Assembly: GCA_016183815.1 (NCBI GenBank)
Contig: JACPDW010000033.1
Location: forward strand, 1-38,929
Source of the DNA: Flavobacteriia bacterium
Lineage (GTDB): Bacteria > Bacteroidota > Bacteroidia > Flavobacteriales_D > Crocinitomicaceae
Length of the DNA stretch: 38,929 nt
Direction of reading: 5' to 3'
A model generated the notes under the pieces. It did no database searches. It was not told the origin of the DNA and worked only from the letters and a program-made list of their open reading frames with translations. Both the position numbers and the translations under genes were made by a program. Position 1 is the first letter of the stretch, and every line of letters begins with the position of its first letter. Of this stretch, positions 345 through 38,658 are shown piece after piece.

Positions 345-3300
345 TTAATTTTCTATAAGCAACTTATAATTCCATATAGTTTTTTCTGATTGGAGATTTA
401 ATAGATATGTGCCTGATTTTATGTTTTTAGGAATATTAATTCCATTTAAAACCTTGTTTTGTTGATAAAGTACTTTTCCATTTATATCAAGGAGTCTAAT
501 TTTTAGATTATTATCATTAATGTTATTGATATTTAACCAGTTCCCACTACAAATTGGATTTGGGAAAATTGTTGGATTTAAAGATTTTAACGTTTTATTT
601 ATTTTTAATGAGTTGGTAATATTAATGTTATCCAAATACAATACATTTCCATATCTTCCTATATTTCTGAATAAAATTTGCACATTACCTTCTATATGAT
701 CTAAGTTTATTGTTTCAGTTCGCCACTGGGAAGAGGTCGGTACAAAATACTCTTGAAAATCTGGTGAGGTAGCCAAATCTGTTCCTCCTTTTAAATAGGC
801 GTTGGTATAAGATTGTCCACAATTGTTAGTGTAAAGAATTTCTAATGTATCAGAATTTGCACCACCCCAGCGAGCATAAGCTACATCAAAATTAATCTCT
901 ACATCTGTTTCAGTGGGTAAACTTAAATTAACAATTAAATCATTTTTATCACCTTCTCCATAAATGTTATAATTATCAAATAGTGCTGATTTTTGTGAAG
1001 TTCCATATCCACCTACATTTTCAGAAACACTCCAAAAACCAGTATTATTTTCTCCTTGTTGCCATCCTGTTGGTAAAAAATCATTCTCAAATCCTTCTTC
1101 AATTTGTGACGCAGAATTAGTAAAATTTAAATTAACGGTAATAGTGTCGTAATCAAATTGACCAGCTTGATTTGTGATTTTTAGTATCGCTAAATGAGTT
1201 CCTTCTTGAGTAAATAAAACACTAGGATTACGTAAATTAGATGAACTAGGACTACCAGTTGGAAAAGTCCATTCCCAAGTTGCTCCAATGTGTTTTAGAA
1301 ATGAGTAATCATCGAAATAAAAAGAATCAATTTTGCAAAATGAATTTTGCTCTAAAGAGTTGACCATTATTCGGGCAATAGGTAAGCTATTGTTATCAAA
1401 TAAATTACCTTCCCATATTCCTTTTCCATAAGTGGCAATTCTAATTTTCCCTTCTTTATAAAAAGGTTTAATTATATTCACACTTGTATATTTAGGTAAA
1501 TTTTGATTATCTAAAACCCAAGACATATTTTCATTTCGATAAAAAATATTAGTGTTTGTACCAACATATACACCTCCATTTGTTCCTGCAATGTATTGAA
1601 TTGCTTGAATATTTTCTCCGTTTAAAGTTTCGTCAGAATAGATTGTCCAACTCGTTCCGCCGTTTGTAGTTTTAAATACTTTATTTCCATCATAAACATC
1701 AGGGAATGCAATATATAATTCGTTTGCATTGGATGGATTAACAGAAAGTAATATTCTTCTACTTTGACCCGAAGGTAAGGTGATGGAAGTCCAACTTATA
1801 CCACCATCGATAGATTTCCAAAGTGAACCTGTATTTCCACTTGATGGTTGTTGATTTAGATAAATAATATCGGGATTATCTGAAGAAATTTCAATGTATT
1901 TTACTTGATTATTAGTATTTATGCCAAAAGTATAAAGCAAATTAAAAGTTGCACCTCCATCAATAGTTTTCCAAAGTTTATTTTCATTACCTAAATAAGC
2001 AATGTTATAACAATTTGGGTGAAATTCCATTTCACTAGATTCAGCAGCCCAGTAACTCTCATTCGGACTCATTCCAAAACCAAAAGATAAGATTGGGTCA
2101 TTAAGGTTGAAGGGTAAAACTTTTCCACCAATATCAGAGAAATATGTTTTAAGTGAGTTGCCAGGGTTAACGTAACCTGTCGGAGCTTCACCTCCACCCA
2201 ATTCGAGAAAATTTCCTTGTCCATAATTGCTGAAATGGGCTATATTTCCATTATGGTATAAGCCGCCAACGACAACGTCATCGTTCCACCCAGAACCAAA
2301 GCCCCAAAAATCGGAACTATTGATGCCTTTCATTTTAAAATCAGGTTGAATTTCCAATAGGTTTGTTGAATGATAAATACCCCCATCTGTTGTAAACCAA
2401 TATTGACCGTCGATTACTCTAAAATCTTGATTATCCACGTGTAAACTTAAAGGACCACCAATATATCCACTTACTCCTTGAAAAGTAATTCCTCCATCAC
2501 TTGATTTCCAAATGTTTAATCCGCCAACAATAATCTCATCTGGATTGTTTTCTGAACATAAAATGGCACAATTATAAAATCCTTGATGGTAAGTCCAATC
2601 GGGGCTTCCAATTGCTAAATTTGGATGTTCAGTAGTGTAAGGACCTCCTGTTGGAGCATTGGGTAATGACCAACTTCCACCAGCATCATCACTTTTAAAT
2701 ACTCCAATAAACCCAAAATCATCGGCTTTACTTTCTCCAATTAAATAAGCATATACTCTATTTGGGTCGGCTGGCGTTACAGCTAATCGTCCACCTCCAT
2801 CATTTCTTGCTGGGTCATTAGAAGAATACCATCCAGAAGATTGAATATTCCATGAACTACCACTATCCTCTGATTTATAGAATTCACAAATGGATAAAGT
2901 TGGATTGTTTTGAAGACAAAAAATAATGGAGGAATTGTCGGTTTTTTCTTTTATATCATACGCTTTTCTGTTATTAATCTCATTCCAATTTAAACCTCCG
3001 TCTAATGATTGAAACAAACCTTTATCAGTTGCTGCAAAGACAATGTTTTCATTGCCAGAATTAATTAAAATCTCATTCACTCCGAAATTACTGTTTACTA
3101 AAACATTTTCCCAATTTAATCCACCATCAATTGAACGAAAAATACCGTTATTTCCACCGGCAAAAACCAAATTTGGATTAGTAGGACTGACTTCAACGGC
3201 TGTAACTCCACTTCCAAAATCTTCATTTAGTGAAACAATAAACCAATTTTCACCCCCATCTTCGCTTTTATACACTTCACCTGGTTCTGTTCCACAGTAC

Positions 3301-3734
3301 AAAATATTCATATCGCTTTTACATTGATCCAAAGAATACACATTGGATTGCCCAGAGCCTTGTTGACCGGATTCTTGAAAATTTTGAATTGGACCAACTA
3401 AAGACCAACTTGTGTTTCTGAGAGAATTAGTTTGATTGAATTTTTTTTTAATGATTGGATAGGAGACAATGTATCCCTCATGGTTTATTTTATTGATATT
3501 TTGTTTTTTCCATCTTTTGTAATATTGCGTATGGTAGGATTTTACAAAAGGATTTACTTTGTAATAATTATTAAATAATTCATCTACTTCCCAAACATTT
3601 GGATTATCATCGTACATTTTTTGAGCCCAAAGAGGACATGTTTGAATCTCAAAATTTGATGGTTTTTGAAGGTTTTGTGAATATATAAGATGTTCAAATA
3701 AAAAAACAAACAATACAAAATAGGACAGTTTCAT
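345..3734 (-). CDS. T9SS-exported Asp-box beta-propeller protein with PKD-like domain and type A sorting domain
   Basis: A 1129-residue secreted protein. The start is taken at ATG 3734 because a hydrophobic signal peptide (MKLSYFVLFVFLF...SQN) begins there and a TAnnTTTG promoter motif lies just upstream. Roughly residues 140-800 carry at least nine Asp-box-type repeats (SEDGGENW, SIDGGLNW, SLDGGLNW, SEDSGSSW, SIDGGISW, TTNGGTSW and others), as in sortilin/VPS10-like and BNR propellers. Next come a PKD-like segment (WEWTFPTGSP ... HLAILKITNQAG) and a jelly-roll-like domain with FDVAYARWGG and LYLDNINI. The last 75 or so residues match a T9SS type A sorting domain (IFPNP, LLDINGKVLYQQ, SGTYLLNL), which directs outer-membrane translocation. 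The substrate is unknown. Asp-box propellers bind glycans or proteins; no sialidase catalytic set was identified, so a binding or structural role is as likely as enzymatic. Confidence 0.9.
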   Translation of the reverse strand: MKLSYFVLFVFLFEHLIYSQNLQKPSNFEIQTCPLWAQKMYDDNPNVWEVDELFNNYYKVNPFVKSYHTQYYKRWKKQNINKINHEGYIVSYPIIKKKFNQTNSLRNTSWSLVGPIQNFQESGQQGSGQSNVYSLDQCKSDMNILYCGTEPGEVYKSEDGGENWFIVSLNEDFGSGVTAVEVSPTNPNLVFAGGNNGIFRSIDGGLNWENVLVNSNFGVNEILINSGNENIVFAATDKGLFQSLDGGLNWNEINNRKAYDIKEKTDNSSIIFCLQNNPTLSICEFYKSEDSGSSWNIQSSGWYSSNDPARNDGGGRLAVTPADPNRVYAYLIGESKADDFGFIGVFKSDDAGGSWSLPNAPTGGPYTTEHPNLAIGSPDWTYHQGFYNCAILCSENNPDEIIVGGLNIWKSSDGGITFQGVSGYIGGPLSLHVDNQDFRVIDGQYWFTTDGGIYHSTNLLEIQPDFKMKGINSSDFWGFGSGWNDDVVVGGLYHNGNIAHFSNYGQGNFLELGGGEAPTGYVNPGNSLKTYFSDIGGKVLPFNLNDPILSFGFGMSPNESYWAAESSEMEFHPNCYNIAYLGNENKLWKTIDGGATFNLLYTFGINTNNQVKYIEISSDNPDIIYLNQQPSSGNTGSLWKSIDGGISWTSITLPSGQSRRILLSVNPSNANELYIAFPDVYDGNKVFKTTNGGTSWTIYSDETLNGENIQAIQYIAGTNGGVYVGTNTNIFYRNENMSWVLDNQNLPKYTSVNIIKPFYKEGKIRIATYGKGIWEGNLFDNNSLPIARIMVNSLEQNSFCKIDSFYFDDYSFLKHIGATWEWTFPTGSPSSSNLRNPSVLFTQEGTHLAILKITNQAGQFDYDTITVNLNFTNSASQIEEGFENDFLPTGWQQGENNTGFWSVSENVGGYGTSQKSALFDNYNIYGEGDKNDLIVNLSLPTETDVEINFDVAYARWGGANSDTLEILYTNNCGQSYTNAYLKGGTDLATSPDFQEYFVPTSSQWRTETINLDHIEGNVQILFRNIGRYGNVLYLDNINITNSLKINKTLKSLNPTIFPNPICSGNWLNINNINDNNLKIRLLDINGKVLYQQNKVLNGINIPKNIKSGTYLLNLQSEKTIWNYKLLIEN

Positions 3735-3749
3735 ATAAAAATTTTGCCA

Positions 3750-3757
3750 CAAAAATA
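3750..3757 (-). promoter_or_regulatory. TAnnTTTG -7 promoter element for the T9SS protein gene
   Basis: On the minus strand the sequence reads TATTTTTG, matching the Bacteroidota -7 consensus TAnnTTTG, 15 bases before the ATG at 3734. No clear -33 TTG is at the right distance. The TTG inside the motif makes a spurious upstream start, supporting the downstream ATG. Confidence 0.55.
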
Positions 3758-34798: not shown

Positions 34799-35992
34799 TC
34801 AGTACATAAACCCAAACAACCACAATGGAATAGATTTTTGATAGCCAAATTCAATTTCATCTTTAGCTAAAAACGAGTTGATTTTCCCTTTAATTTGATC
34901 TTGAGATTTATTTTTACCTCCAATTTCAAATGTAAATTTTTTATTGATTAAAAAATCACCTGTTTTGTTGTAGTTTACTTTATGACCAGCACTTTCAAGT
35001 TGATTGATGAAAAATGTTTCTCTAACTGTTCCTATTTCAGGTTTATGTTGACATAAAGCATACATTAAATTGGAGTTGTGTAAATAAATTTTTTCAGGTT
35101 TATTTAGAAGAGTGCTATTGTTAGCACCACTATACAAACCATAAGTTAAACGAGCTGCTTCCAACATTTTAATCATTTCATATAATTTTGGACGCGAACA
35201 CCCTACCTGTTCAGCAAGTTTACTGATATTTGGTGTGAAAGGTACAGCTTGTGATATGATGAACAATAATTTTTTTAATTGATGTAAAGTATTAAATTCG
35301 ACTGAAATAGAATTGGGTAAATCGACATCAATAATTAGATTTATCGTTTGTTTAAGACGCAAATGAACCATTGTACTCTCTTTAAAAATAGGGTAAGCTC
35401 CCCATTCTAAATATTGTTTAAAATAAAAAAGCGGTTTTGGAAGTTTATCAAATAATTCTTTTACAATTTTTTCATGTTTAGAAATAATATCGTCTAATGA
35501 ATAAATCGGTAAAATAATCTTGTATTTTATGGCTAAAAACTCTCTAAAAGACAATTCGGTTAATTTAAAATTCAATACTCTTCTACTTAAATCAGCACCA
35601 GAACGTTGGAGTTCAAGGATTGAAGACCCTGTAATTAACAATTTTACATCAGGAATTAAATCGTAAATATTTTTGACTTCCCTGCTCCAGTCTGAGTATT
35701 TATGAACTTCATCTAAAACTAGTAGTTTACCGTTGTTTTGTGAAAATTTTCGGGCTGTTTCTACTAAAGTATTATTCCTGAAATAAATATCGTCCAATGT
35801 TACATACAATGCTTCCGATACTTTGTAATTTTTTTTAAGGTGTTGCAAAAATAATGTAGTTTTACCTGATCCTCTTGCACCAAAAAGCATTATGGCTCTT
35901 TCTTTCCATGGAATCTTGTAAAGCATCGAACGTTCAAAATCATTCTTTAGATTGTTGAGTAAAACTTGTTGTGTTTGAAATAATTCTTCCAT
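34799..35992 (-). CDS. AAA ATPase of the AAA_14/DUF4143 type
   Basis: A 397-residue ATPase. Walker A is GARGSGKTT at residues 38-46, Walker B LLVLDEVHKY near residues 90-99 and sensor-1-like LLITGSSILELQRSG. L-S-F-R-E-F-L marks the family switch region, followed by a winged-helix-like segment (KLAEQVGCSRPKLYEMIKML) and a C-terminal PD-(D/E)XK-like DUF4143 region (FLINKKFTFEIGGKNKSQDQ). Cellular roles of these ATPases are poorly known. The start is ATG 35992; the upstream in-frame TTG at 36013 lies in the promoter motif. The phased repeat array lies immediately upstream. Confidence 0.9.
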   Translation of the reverse strand: MEELFQTQQVLLNNLKNDFERSMLYKIPWKERAIMLFGARGSGKTTLFLQHLKKNYKVSEALYVTLDDIYFRNNTLVETARKFSQNNGKLLVLDEVHKYSDWSREVKNIYDLIPDVKLLITGSSILELQRSGADLSRRVLNFKLTELSFREFLAIKYKIILPIYSLDDIISKHEKIVKELFDKLPKPLFYFKQYLEWGAYPIFKESTMVHLRLKQTINLIIDVDLPNSISVEFNTLHQLKKLLFIISQAVPFTPNISKLAEQVGCSRPKLYEMIKMLEAARLTYGLYSGANNSTLLNKPEKIYLHNSNLMYALCQHKPEIGTVRETFFINQLESAGHKVNYNKTGDFLINKKFTFEIGGKNKSQDQIKGKINSFLAKDEIEFGYQKSIPLWLFGFMY

Positions 35993-36010: not shown

Positions 36011-36018
36011 CAAAGATA
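36011..36018 (-). promoter_or_regulatory. TAnnTTTG -7 element for the AAA ATPase gene
   Basis: The minus strand reads TATCTTTG, ending 18 bases before ATG 35992. The -33 position falls inside the first dyad of the repeat array, so a protein bound there would be expected to affect this promoter. Confidence 0.6.
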
Positions 36019-36026
36019 CTAATTAT

Positions 36027-36191
36027 TGTAATATATATATTACATATTAAATATTTTTATGTAAATTAAATATATTATTATACTTATATTTATGTATATT
36101 TAATATTACATATATAAACTTATATTGTAATGACTATATTACATTATATATTTATATATGTATTATAGATTTTACAATATTAAAAATTATA
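36027..36191. repeat. Array of five 33-bp phased units with TGTA-N10-TACA dyads
   Basis: TGTA begins at 36027, 36060, 36093, 36126 and 36159, exactly 33 bases apart. Four of the five units (all but the second) have TACA 14 bases after the TGTA start, giving 18-bp dyads at 36027-36044 (perfect palindrome TGTAATATATATATTACA), 36093-36110, 36126-36143 (TGTAAT-N6-ATTACA) and 36159-36176. Between 36021 and 36200 there are only 7 G and 7 C; 5 of the G and 4 of the C are the phased TGTA/TACA bases. This is an iteron- or operator-like protein-binding array, of about three helical turns per unit. Confidence 0.75.
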
Positions 36192-36303
36192 AATTAAAAT
36201 TTTCAACTTGGATTTCTATTAAAAAAATTACGAATTGATTTGTAACTAAAAACAATATATAGTAATATTTTTTTCACTCGGTCATATTTTGACTTCTTCT
36301 GTT

Positions 36304-37037
36304 ATGAAATTTGAAGAAATATTAAATATGGAAACAAAAAATCTAATTAAAACAAACATCCATCTTTTTGATGATAAAATCAAACTTATTAAGGAAAGCG
36401 ATTTAGTATTATTTGCATCTTATCATTCTATTTGGAACACACAACTTTTTATCAATCTAGCTTTGGAAATAGCTAAAACAACAGAAGTAATGTTTTTTTC
36501 ATGTAAATATGAAATGGAAACTATTGAAAAGTTTTTTACCAAAACATTGCTCAAACAAAAAATGCACGATTACACACTTCCATTTGATAAAAGTGAGCAA
36601 CTAAAAGCACTATTAGAATTGTGTAATTTAAAATTGAAAATTCAAGCTTCAAAAAAAATCAATTACCACAAAATTTGGAATGAAAGTATTGAAGAAAGGG
36701 ATGGGATTTAGAAAGGAATCTAAAAAAGTTAGCTAAATATGCAAAAATTGAAAATATTTGTATTGTAGTCAACGGAAAAATTCCATTTCCAAAAAAAATA
36801 AAAATGCAAAAACTTTATGATCTGAATTTTCTAAAAAGAATGACTATTCAATATGCTTATTTTGACAAAATTATTGCCATACATAAAGAAGCGTATTTTG
36901 GTATAAATGAAGATGTTTCAGGCAAATCAACTCAAGGTAAATTAGAATTAAAGGTTTTATTTTCAAGAGATGAATCGGAAAAAAATTATTATGGACACGT
37001 TGGAACAAACTGGAAAATAGATTTTGAAAAATTTTAG
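36304..37037 (+). pseudogene. DnaB-helicase-like gene, frameshifted and catalytically degenerate
   Basis: Two adjacent frames together resemble the RecA-like C-terminal domain of DnaB. Frame 1 (36304-36711) has SDLVLFASYHSIWNTQLFIN, then EVMFFSCKYEME, matching the Walker A neighbourhood and the F-S-L-E-M motif of DnaB. Frame 2 (36693-37037) has WDLERNLKKLAKYAKIENIC, FDKIIAIHKEAYFG and GKLELKVLFSRDES, matching L-K-x-L-A-K, A-D-x-x-x-x-x-x-R and the K-x-R-N-G finger. The frame change must lie in 36693-36708. The Walker A lysine (G-K-T becomes W-N-T), the Q-L-N-R motif and the arginine finger are all altered. It is either a relic or a helicase-derived non-enzymatic protein with a sequence error. 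No N-terminal primase-binding domain is present. Confidence 0.62.
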
Positions 37038-38424: not shown

Positions 38425-38658
38425 ATGGCACTATTTAAAATTACAGTAAAACAAACGCAAGTTTCAAACGGTATCCGTTTAGAAAAAGGAATGAGTGTTC
38501 AAGTGGCTTCCAAGTATTCATCTAATCCGATGATGATAAACGGAGGACAAGAAGTTCAAGATGCTTTCATGCGAATGTATGGTATCGATTTACGCAAGTT
38601 TGGTGGTGGAAATATTGCTAATTCTGCTTCGAGAATGGAGGTAGTGAAGATTTCTTAG
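38425..38658 (+). CDS. DUF6140-family small protein
   Basis: A 77-residue protein (ALFKITVKQTQVSNGIRLEK, GMSVQVASKYSSNPMMINGG, QEVQDAFMRMYGIDLRKFGG) that I recognise as DUF6140, a small Bacteroidota family often seen in integrated mobile elements. The function is unknown. CAACTTTG at 38390-38397, one base off the -7 consensus, lies 27 bases upstream. Confidence 0.72.
   Translation: MALFKITVKQTQVSNGIRLEKGMSVQVASKYSSNPMMINGGQEVQDAFMRMYGIDLRKFGGGNIANSASRMEVVKIS

Follow-up and report, generated by a model that had tools for sequence, protein, structure and literature searches.

Several self-repressing regulators act through multiple operators, including the plasmid Rep proteins with their iterons, ParA at its promoters, and HspR. 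In these systems, a protein occupies repeated dyads at its own promoter, and we propose the same arrangement for a locus in a 38,929-bp stretch of DNA from a Flavobacteriia bacterium of the Crocinitomicaceae (assembly GCA_016183815.1, contig JACPDW010000033.1, positions 1 to 38,929). This stretch, referred to below as the window, is one whole contig of a genome of 3.24 Mb in 44 contigs. It contains five dyads at 33-bp spacing upstream of the gene for an AAA+ ATPase, P0001 (Table 1), and these dyads represent a real, functional-looking operator array that is most likely bound by the ATPase encoded downstream. The proposed system differs from Rep iterons, ParA promoters, and HspR in that regulation would be exerted by an AAA+ nuclease-like enzyme and in that the dyad letters vary by paralog while the spacing is conserved. 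Autoregulation by dyads is already known; new here are the enzyme class, the fixed spacing of 32-33 (or 29) bp, and the diversified code. Our literature searches, for which most subscription papers and all preprints were outside the scope and of which several were narrow or swamped, returned no report of such arrays.

Among described proteins, P0001 resembles PDC-S01, a single-gene phage-defence candidate that, in the available part of PMC12988326, is an ATPase joined to a PD-(D/E)XK domain. According to the same part of that source, few putative defence genes are commoner than those of PDC-S01-like ATPases, which come fourth across prokaryotes. The descriptions of PDC-S01, as far as they are available, do not mention a promoter array, which is a feature of the P0001 family. 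Seven PADLOC models for PDC-S01 match P0001 (best E value, 4.9e-25 over residues 29-346; E values only, as PADLOC's own cut-offs were not given), and the link of P0001 to defence consists of this resemblance. P0001 also compares with the AAA_14 (PF13173)/DUF4143 (PF13635) ATPases, which we take to be the predicted ATPases of the COG1373 type. The match to AAA_14 passed the curated cut-off of 27 (E value of 1e-27, 97.2 bits), and that to DUF4143 was weak (18.9 bits and, in a second search, 20.4 bits, both under the curated cut-off of 28.1). No NCBIfam family scored above its cut-off, and a sequence search of solved structures with P0001 gave nothing under an E value of 0.01. The best structure matches of an AlphaFold2 model of P0001 were the archaeal AAA+ ATPases 2fna (Z score of 15.7, root mean square deviation of 4.0, 257 aligned residues, 17% identity) and 2qen (Z score of 15.4, root mean square deviation of 4.5, 263 aligned residues, 14% identity), followed by CED-4 (Z score of 13.8), plant NLR proteins, and Orc-type proteins; the absence of a protein from such match lists carries no information. 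P0001 differs from 2fna and 2qen in its C-terminal part past approximately residue 315, which is not covered by the match.

A preliminary description of this DNA had reported five TGTA words at 33-bp steps and, in four of the five units, TACA at a common offset. We found TGTA at 36027, 36060, 36093, 36126, and 36159 and TACA at an offset of +14 (36041, 36107, 36140, and 36173), and these phased words are every TGTA and TACA inside 36021-36200. The base count reported earlier was also reproduced, with 7 G and 7 C in these 180 bp, 9 of the 14 being phased bases; the array region is 92% A+T. In 3,000 dinucleotide-preserving shuffles, three TGTA words were in phase at a 33-bp step in three cases and four or five in none. 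When any period of 8-59 was allowed, the maximum was three in phase (24/3,000). Thus, the five in-phase words, for which a shuffle of the region's composition had been suggested, were never reached, and five randomly placed words were all in phase in 0 of 200,000 trials. The shuffles rule out chance periodicity of the window array. TGTA-N10-TACA occurs four times in the window, compared with a shuffle mean of 0.70 (1 of 100 shuffles reaches four). A search of the whole genome, also suggested earlier, singled out the array as tandem pairs but not as single words: tandem TGTA-N10-TACA pairs at the 33-bp spacing gave two overlapping matches, both of which are this array, against none for the control, while the single word is at chance level (75 occurrences versus 82 for the reversed control pattern). 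The phase is also retained in a related genome, as the preliminary description had proposed to examine. The ortholog L036, which is 69% identical to P0001, has dyad centres at −45, −78, and −111 relative to the ATPase start and TACA at −139, −106, and −73, the one at −139 being an additional in-phase word (compare the window centres in Table 1). The nearest named ortholog, from Flavobacterium branchiophilum, is 69% identical.

To place the array in its family, we collected 158 homologs with upstream DNA (159 genes including that of the window; approximately 42-69% identical to P0001) and scanned each upstream region for two dyads with a common half-site at lags of 22-45 bp (24 lags), in each case against its own 100 dinucleotide shuffles. 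Dyad pairs beating all 100 shuffles were present in 103 of the 159 homologs, and the lags of these arrays were 33 bp (50 homologs), 32 bp (38), 29 bp (14), and 28 bp (1). Among control upstream regions of other open reading frames (ORFs), 9 of 159 were significant, and 4 of these are ATPase arrays read from the neighbouring gene. An earlier pass over 125 homologs had given 85 significant arrays with the same lags plus one at 23 bp. The dyads are 20 bp long in 74 and 19 bp long in 20 of the 103 homologs and have the form TTG-N14-CAA or TTG-N13-CAA. Within the half-site, G at position 3 is nearly constant, while positions 4-7 are variable. The number of in-phase dyads in the 94 scored arrays is two (60 arrays), three (27), or four (7). 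The window array itself is outside the 103, being below strict significance in this generic scan (1 of 100 shuffles reaches its score), and its own significance is therefore that of the TGTA/TACA shuffle test together with the agreement of the family.

Two further groups of upstream regions have other layouts. Those of L136-L142 are without paired dyads and have TTGCTGGT and ACCAGCAA widely separated and flanking the −7 box, perhaps as one wide dyad. Those of L146-L149, L151, L158, L159, and L226-L228, whose recognition helix reads SRPRLYE, mostly have one strong promoter dyad, TTGTAA-N8-TTACAA, and no array.

The arrays have a defined position relative to the ATPase promoter. TAnnTTTG is the −7 box consensus of flavobacterial sigma-A promoters according to the available part of PMC9723704. 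We identified this motif within 90 bp in 83 of the 103 array-bearing homologs (12.8 expected); the median position of its first base is −26, as in the window. Of the 82 such motifs in homologs with lags of 29, 32, or 33 bp, 54 have their TTG at the left edge of a dyad. The dyad centres cluster at approximately −11, −44, and −76 from the ATPase start; of 206 centres, the 8-bp bins starting at −16, −48, and −80 contain 35, 57, and 28, respectively. Among 72 loci with significant arrays, 47 have their nearest upstream ORF on the same strand as the ATPase gene, and 25 have a divergent one. Because the dyads are at fixed distances from the ATPase start for either orientation of the neighbour, the array follows the ATPase and not the neighbouring gene. 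On the same grounds, the array is ruled out as an operator of the plus-strand genes to its right. The dyads are in register with the gene's own promoter, as is the case for an autoregulated multi-dyad operator. Of the earlier reading, a multimeric operator and a protein bound to it agree well with these data; an operator for the divergent flanking genes does not, the evidence pointing to the minus-strand ATPase alone.

P0001 has the parts that such a regulator would need. Walker A and Walker B (D94-E95) are invariant in the 159 aligned proteins. In the AlphaFold2 model (82-sequence alignment; mean predicted local distance difference test score of 94.1, predicted template modelling score of 0.91), residues 256-263 and 267-279 are helices followed by a strand, and residues 256-279 are accordingly modelled as a helix-turn-helix, in which R267 is nearly invariant (154/159). 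A C-terminal D...E-x-G-x-K motif, with its spacing read from the sequence, looks like a PD-(D/E)XK nuclease site; D346 is present in 159, E356 in 158, and K360 in 126 of the 159 proteins.

We compared the dyad letters with the protein sequences in a set of 71 proteins less than 75% identical to each other, including that of the window. Covariation of half-site positions 4-7 with protein columns had a mean z score of 3.47 at the recognition helix (263-276) and 1.08 elsewhere (p = 6e-6). In partial Mantel tests of the helix against these positions, r was 0.28 (p = 0.001), and the span 261-274 was the best of 54. The clearest signal came from residue 268: N268 accompanies TTGC in 31 proteins, 4 have N without C, 3 have C without N, and 33 have neither. 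Residues other than N mostly accompany TTGT, and D268 accompanies TTGA in three of six cases. On a tree built without the helix-turn-helix, N268 and C at half-site position 4 evolved in a dependent manner (likelihood ratio of 33.2, p = 1e-6), and in a tree-corrected scan of 313 columns, residue 268 ranked first (31.5; next, 22.2). The helix type xR[PTA]x[LM]YE occurs with TGTA-N10-TACA in 17 of 18 genes, compared with 12 of 182 others, and the genes with this type form three distinct groups when these columns are left out of the tree. Campylobacterota loci with 43-44% identity also have the helix of the window protein, SRPKLYE. Paralog pairs of the same genome have common half-site positions 4-7 in 0 of 32 cases, compared with 361 of 4,950 for all pairs (approximately 2 expected), which is suggestive of paralogs being insulated from each other by differing half-sites. 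Taken together, we regard the covariation as strong, though indirect, evidence for binding of the ATPase to its own array.

Predictions fixed beforehand were then applied to unseen homologs (43 new loci, of which 41 remained). The array prediction held, with 28 of 41 upstream regions beating all shuffles, 27 of these 28 at 32 or 33 bp, and TAnnTTTG was present in 26 of the 28, as predicted. C accompanied N268 in 11 of 15 cases and other residues in 0 of 8 (p = 0.0013). In L292 and L301, which carry R267L, the TTG core is lost and replaced by ATCAAT...ATTGAT, and one unseen homolog with K267 has GGTTA...TAACC.

Based on these data, we consider it likely that the five 33-bp dyads are the operator of the ATPase gene at 34799-35992 and that this ATPase binds them in cooperative autorepression. 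ATPase dimers would read each dyad through the helix-turn-helix. As copies three helical turns apart are on nearly one DNA face, neighbouring bound dimers could touch and bind cooperatively; as the dyads cover the −7 box and the DNA upstream of it, the bound protein should obstruct RNA polymerase. Such autorepression would limit the amount of an AAA+ nuclease-like protein that is potentially harmful. Direct binding, dimers, cooperativity, and release of repression by whatever trigger are steps that we infer. The homologs have the same layout with different letters, each fitted to its own recognition helix. As judged from the upstream sequences, this is a family-wide design in which the spacing is conserved and the letters are private to each homolog, and the window array is one example of it.

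Several observations weigh against this interpretation. Fifty-six of the 159 homologs lack a significant dyad pair, and seven of these have a significant single dyad. The window array is without the dyad at −11 that is common in many homologs. The 29-bp lag is not a whole number of helical turns, so same-face contact cannot be the whole explanation. For half-site position 5, no helix column was among the top 15 in the tree-corrected scan, and among nearest-neighbour pairs, the helix was not singled out (rho of 0.52; best window of residues, 0.60; median, 0.45). The residue-268 code has exceptions, with N268 accompanying TTGT in L054, L091, L110, and L112. In the unseen set, it was correct in 17 of 23 cases, below the preset 80%. 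L123 has H267 and keeps an intact TTG core. Finally, repression as the sign of the regulation was deduced from position only.

We considered other explanations for the array. It is conceivable, if unlikely, that the dyads are a platform for assembly or activation on which the ATPase polymerises, turning on the ATPase/nuclease or marking the host chromosome as self. In agreement with this, the regular spacing, the up to four or five copies, and the centres at −109 to −175 upstream of the promoter exceed what simple blocking needs, and the model is similar both to oligomerising STAND/NLR-type ATPases (CED-4) and to archaeal AAA+ ATPases (2fna). However, an assembly site does not need dyads in register with the −7 box and start codon, and most scored arrays have only two in-phase dyads. 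A regulator encoded elsewhere could also bind the dyads; the covariation is correlational, linked genes have a common history, and the nearest-pair tests were not helix-specific. Yet residue 268 ranks first of 313 columns after tree correction, helix type and dyad recur jointly in three lineages, and one outside regulator could not serve all arrays because the dyads differ between paralogs of one genome. Accordingly, we regard such a regulator as improbable.

The preliminary description had offered an iteron set of a replicon or a partition site as options. In such a reading, a replicon or mobile element would have the array as its iterons or centromere, serving as origin or partition site, and the ATPase would be an initiator- or partition-like protein. 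Orc/Cdc6 initiators (1w5t; Z score of 12.5) are likewise built from an AAA+ domain and a subsequent winged-helix-like domain, and 27 plasmid records hold a P0001 homolog. These options are nevertheless not favoured, and we find them very improbable: the source genome has six close paralogs (E ≤ 1e-70), each with its own half-site where scored, the homologs searched are mostly on chromosomal-size contigs, the dyads are aligned to the ATPase promoter, and the conserved D...E-x-G-x-K nuclease motif would have no role. Chance periodicity or slippage in AT-rich DNA might be suspected from the base composition and from units that look like a decayed tandem repeat; the shuffles, the same phase in L036, and the arrays in the homologs have already refuted it, and we give it practically no credence.

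In overlapping genome sets, P0001 homologs at E ≤ 1e-70 are present in 56/240 (family), 66/399 (order), 56/395 (class), and 53/395 (phylum) genomes; at E ≤ 1e-5, one phage record holds a homolog. Among more distant relatives (second-tier matches), the dyad scan gave 9 of 14 upstream regions that beat all shuffles, with lags of 32 bp (seven), 33 bp (one), and 45 bp (one) and unrelated dyads. In a scan for direct repeats, 11 of 23 upstream regions of distant relatives exceeded all 200 shuffles, with a lag of 32 or 33 bp in 9 of them; the controls, at 100 shuffles each, gave 11 of 159, and their lags were scattered. The source genome contains 14 DUF4143 matches. Of the nine distant ones, one beat all shuffles in the dyad scan, at 32 bp, and four did so in the direct-repeat scan, at 37, 32, 23, and 33 bp. 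Because distant DUF4143-type relatives display the 32-33 bp rule with unrelated letters (8/14), the rule may hold for the whole class. Upstream of the distant relatives L027, L029, and L030, 32-bp direct repeats include an inter-dyad spacer that is itself repeated exactly or nearly so, as if recently copied. Upstream of L253 (G000:C43), a DUF4143 gene of the source genome, the direct repeats are at 23 bp and not 32 bp.

The conserved array, whose protein-DNA code can be read in part, points to a site and to residues for binding and yields a prediction for every paralog. The homologs also provide a natural set of helix-turn-helix proteins, each with its matched site, in which the divergence of DNA specificity can be studied. 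Tentatively, and with more doubt than confidence, we suggest that the very widespread AAA+/helix-turn-helix/PD-(D/E)XK class, which is related to PDC-S01, may use private, helically spaced dyad arrays that act at once as operator, as copy sensor, and as assembly platform. Each paralog would have its own address on the DNA, specified by a short part of its recognition helix. Several such modules could thereby coexist in one cell with no cross-talk between them, and the enzyme would be released or nucleated by DNA that is invading or damaged.

Table 1. Coordinates of the ATPase gene, its putative promoter element, and the upstream dyads in the window; dyad centres are relative to the ATPase start.
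Feature	Coordinates	Strand	Basis and remarks
AAA+ ATPase gene P0001 (397 residues), presumed array binder	34799..35992	minus	Translation, Pfam AAA_14, 158 homologs
PD-(D/E)XK-like motif, D346 ... E356-x-G-x-K360	34913..34957	minus	Conservation in alignment
Helix-turn-helix (predicted), residues 256-279	35156..35227	minus	AlphaFold2 model and covariation with dyads; recognition helix 267-279 = 35156-35194
Walker A, residues 38-45, GARGSGKT	35858..35881	minus	G38, R40, G41, G43, and K44 in 159/159 aligned proteins
Putative −7 box of ATPase promoter, TATCTTTG	36011..36018	minus	Sequence and position; its T at −26
Dyad 1	36026..36045	none	Core TGTA-N10-TACA 36027-36044; centre −43; 9/10 arm positions symmetric
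Dyad 2	36059..36078	none	Core 36060-36077; right arm degenerate; centre −76; 4/10 arm positions symmetric
Dyad 3	36092..36111	none	Core 36093-36110; centre −109; 7/10 arm positions symmetric
Dyad 4	36125..36144	none	Core 36126-36143; centre −142; 6/10 arm positions symmetric
Dyad 5	36158..36177	none	Core 36159-36176; centre −175; 6/10 arm positions symmetric

Elsewhere in the window, a plus-strand ORF at 36289-37038 matches a DnaB-C-like helicase (Pfam E value of 7e-5, below the cut-off) and stops early at 36711, with the likely remainder in a different frame. The gene is apparently broken and perhaps marks the edge of a mobile element. From 37137 to the contig end at 38929, the plus strand has small ORFs with weak (Rad10-like) or no family matches, one of which starts with MALFKITVKQ near 38426. 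The minus-strand gene at 345-3752 encodes a large protein, the end of which presumably resembles a type IX secretion sorting domain.
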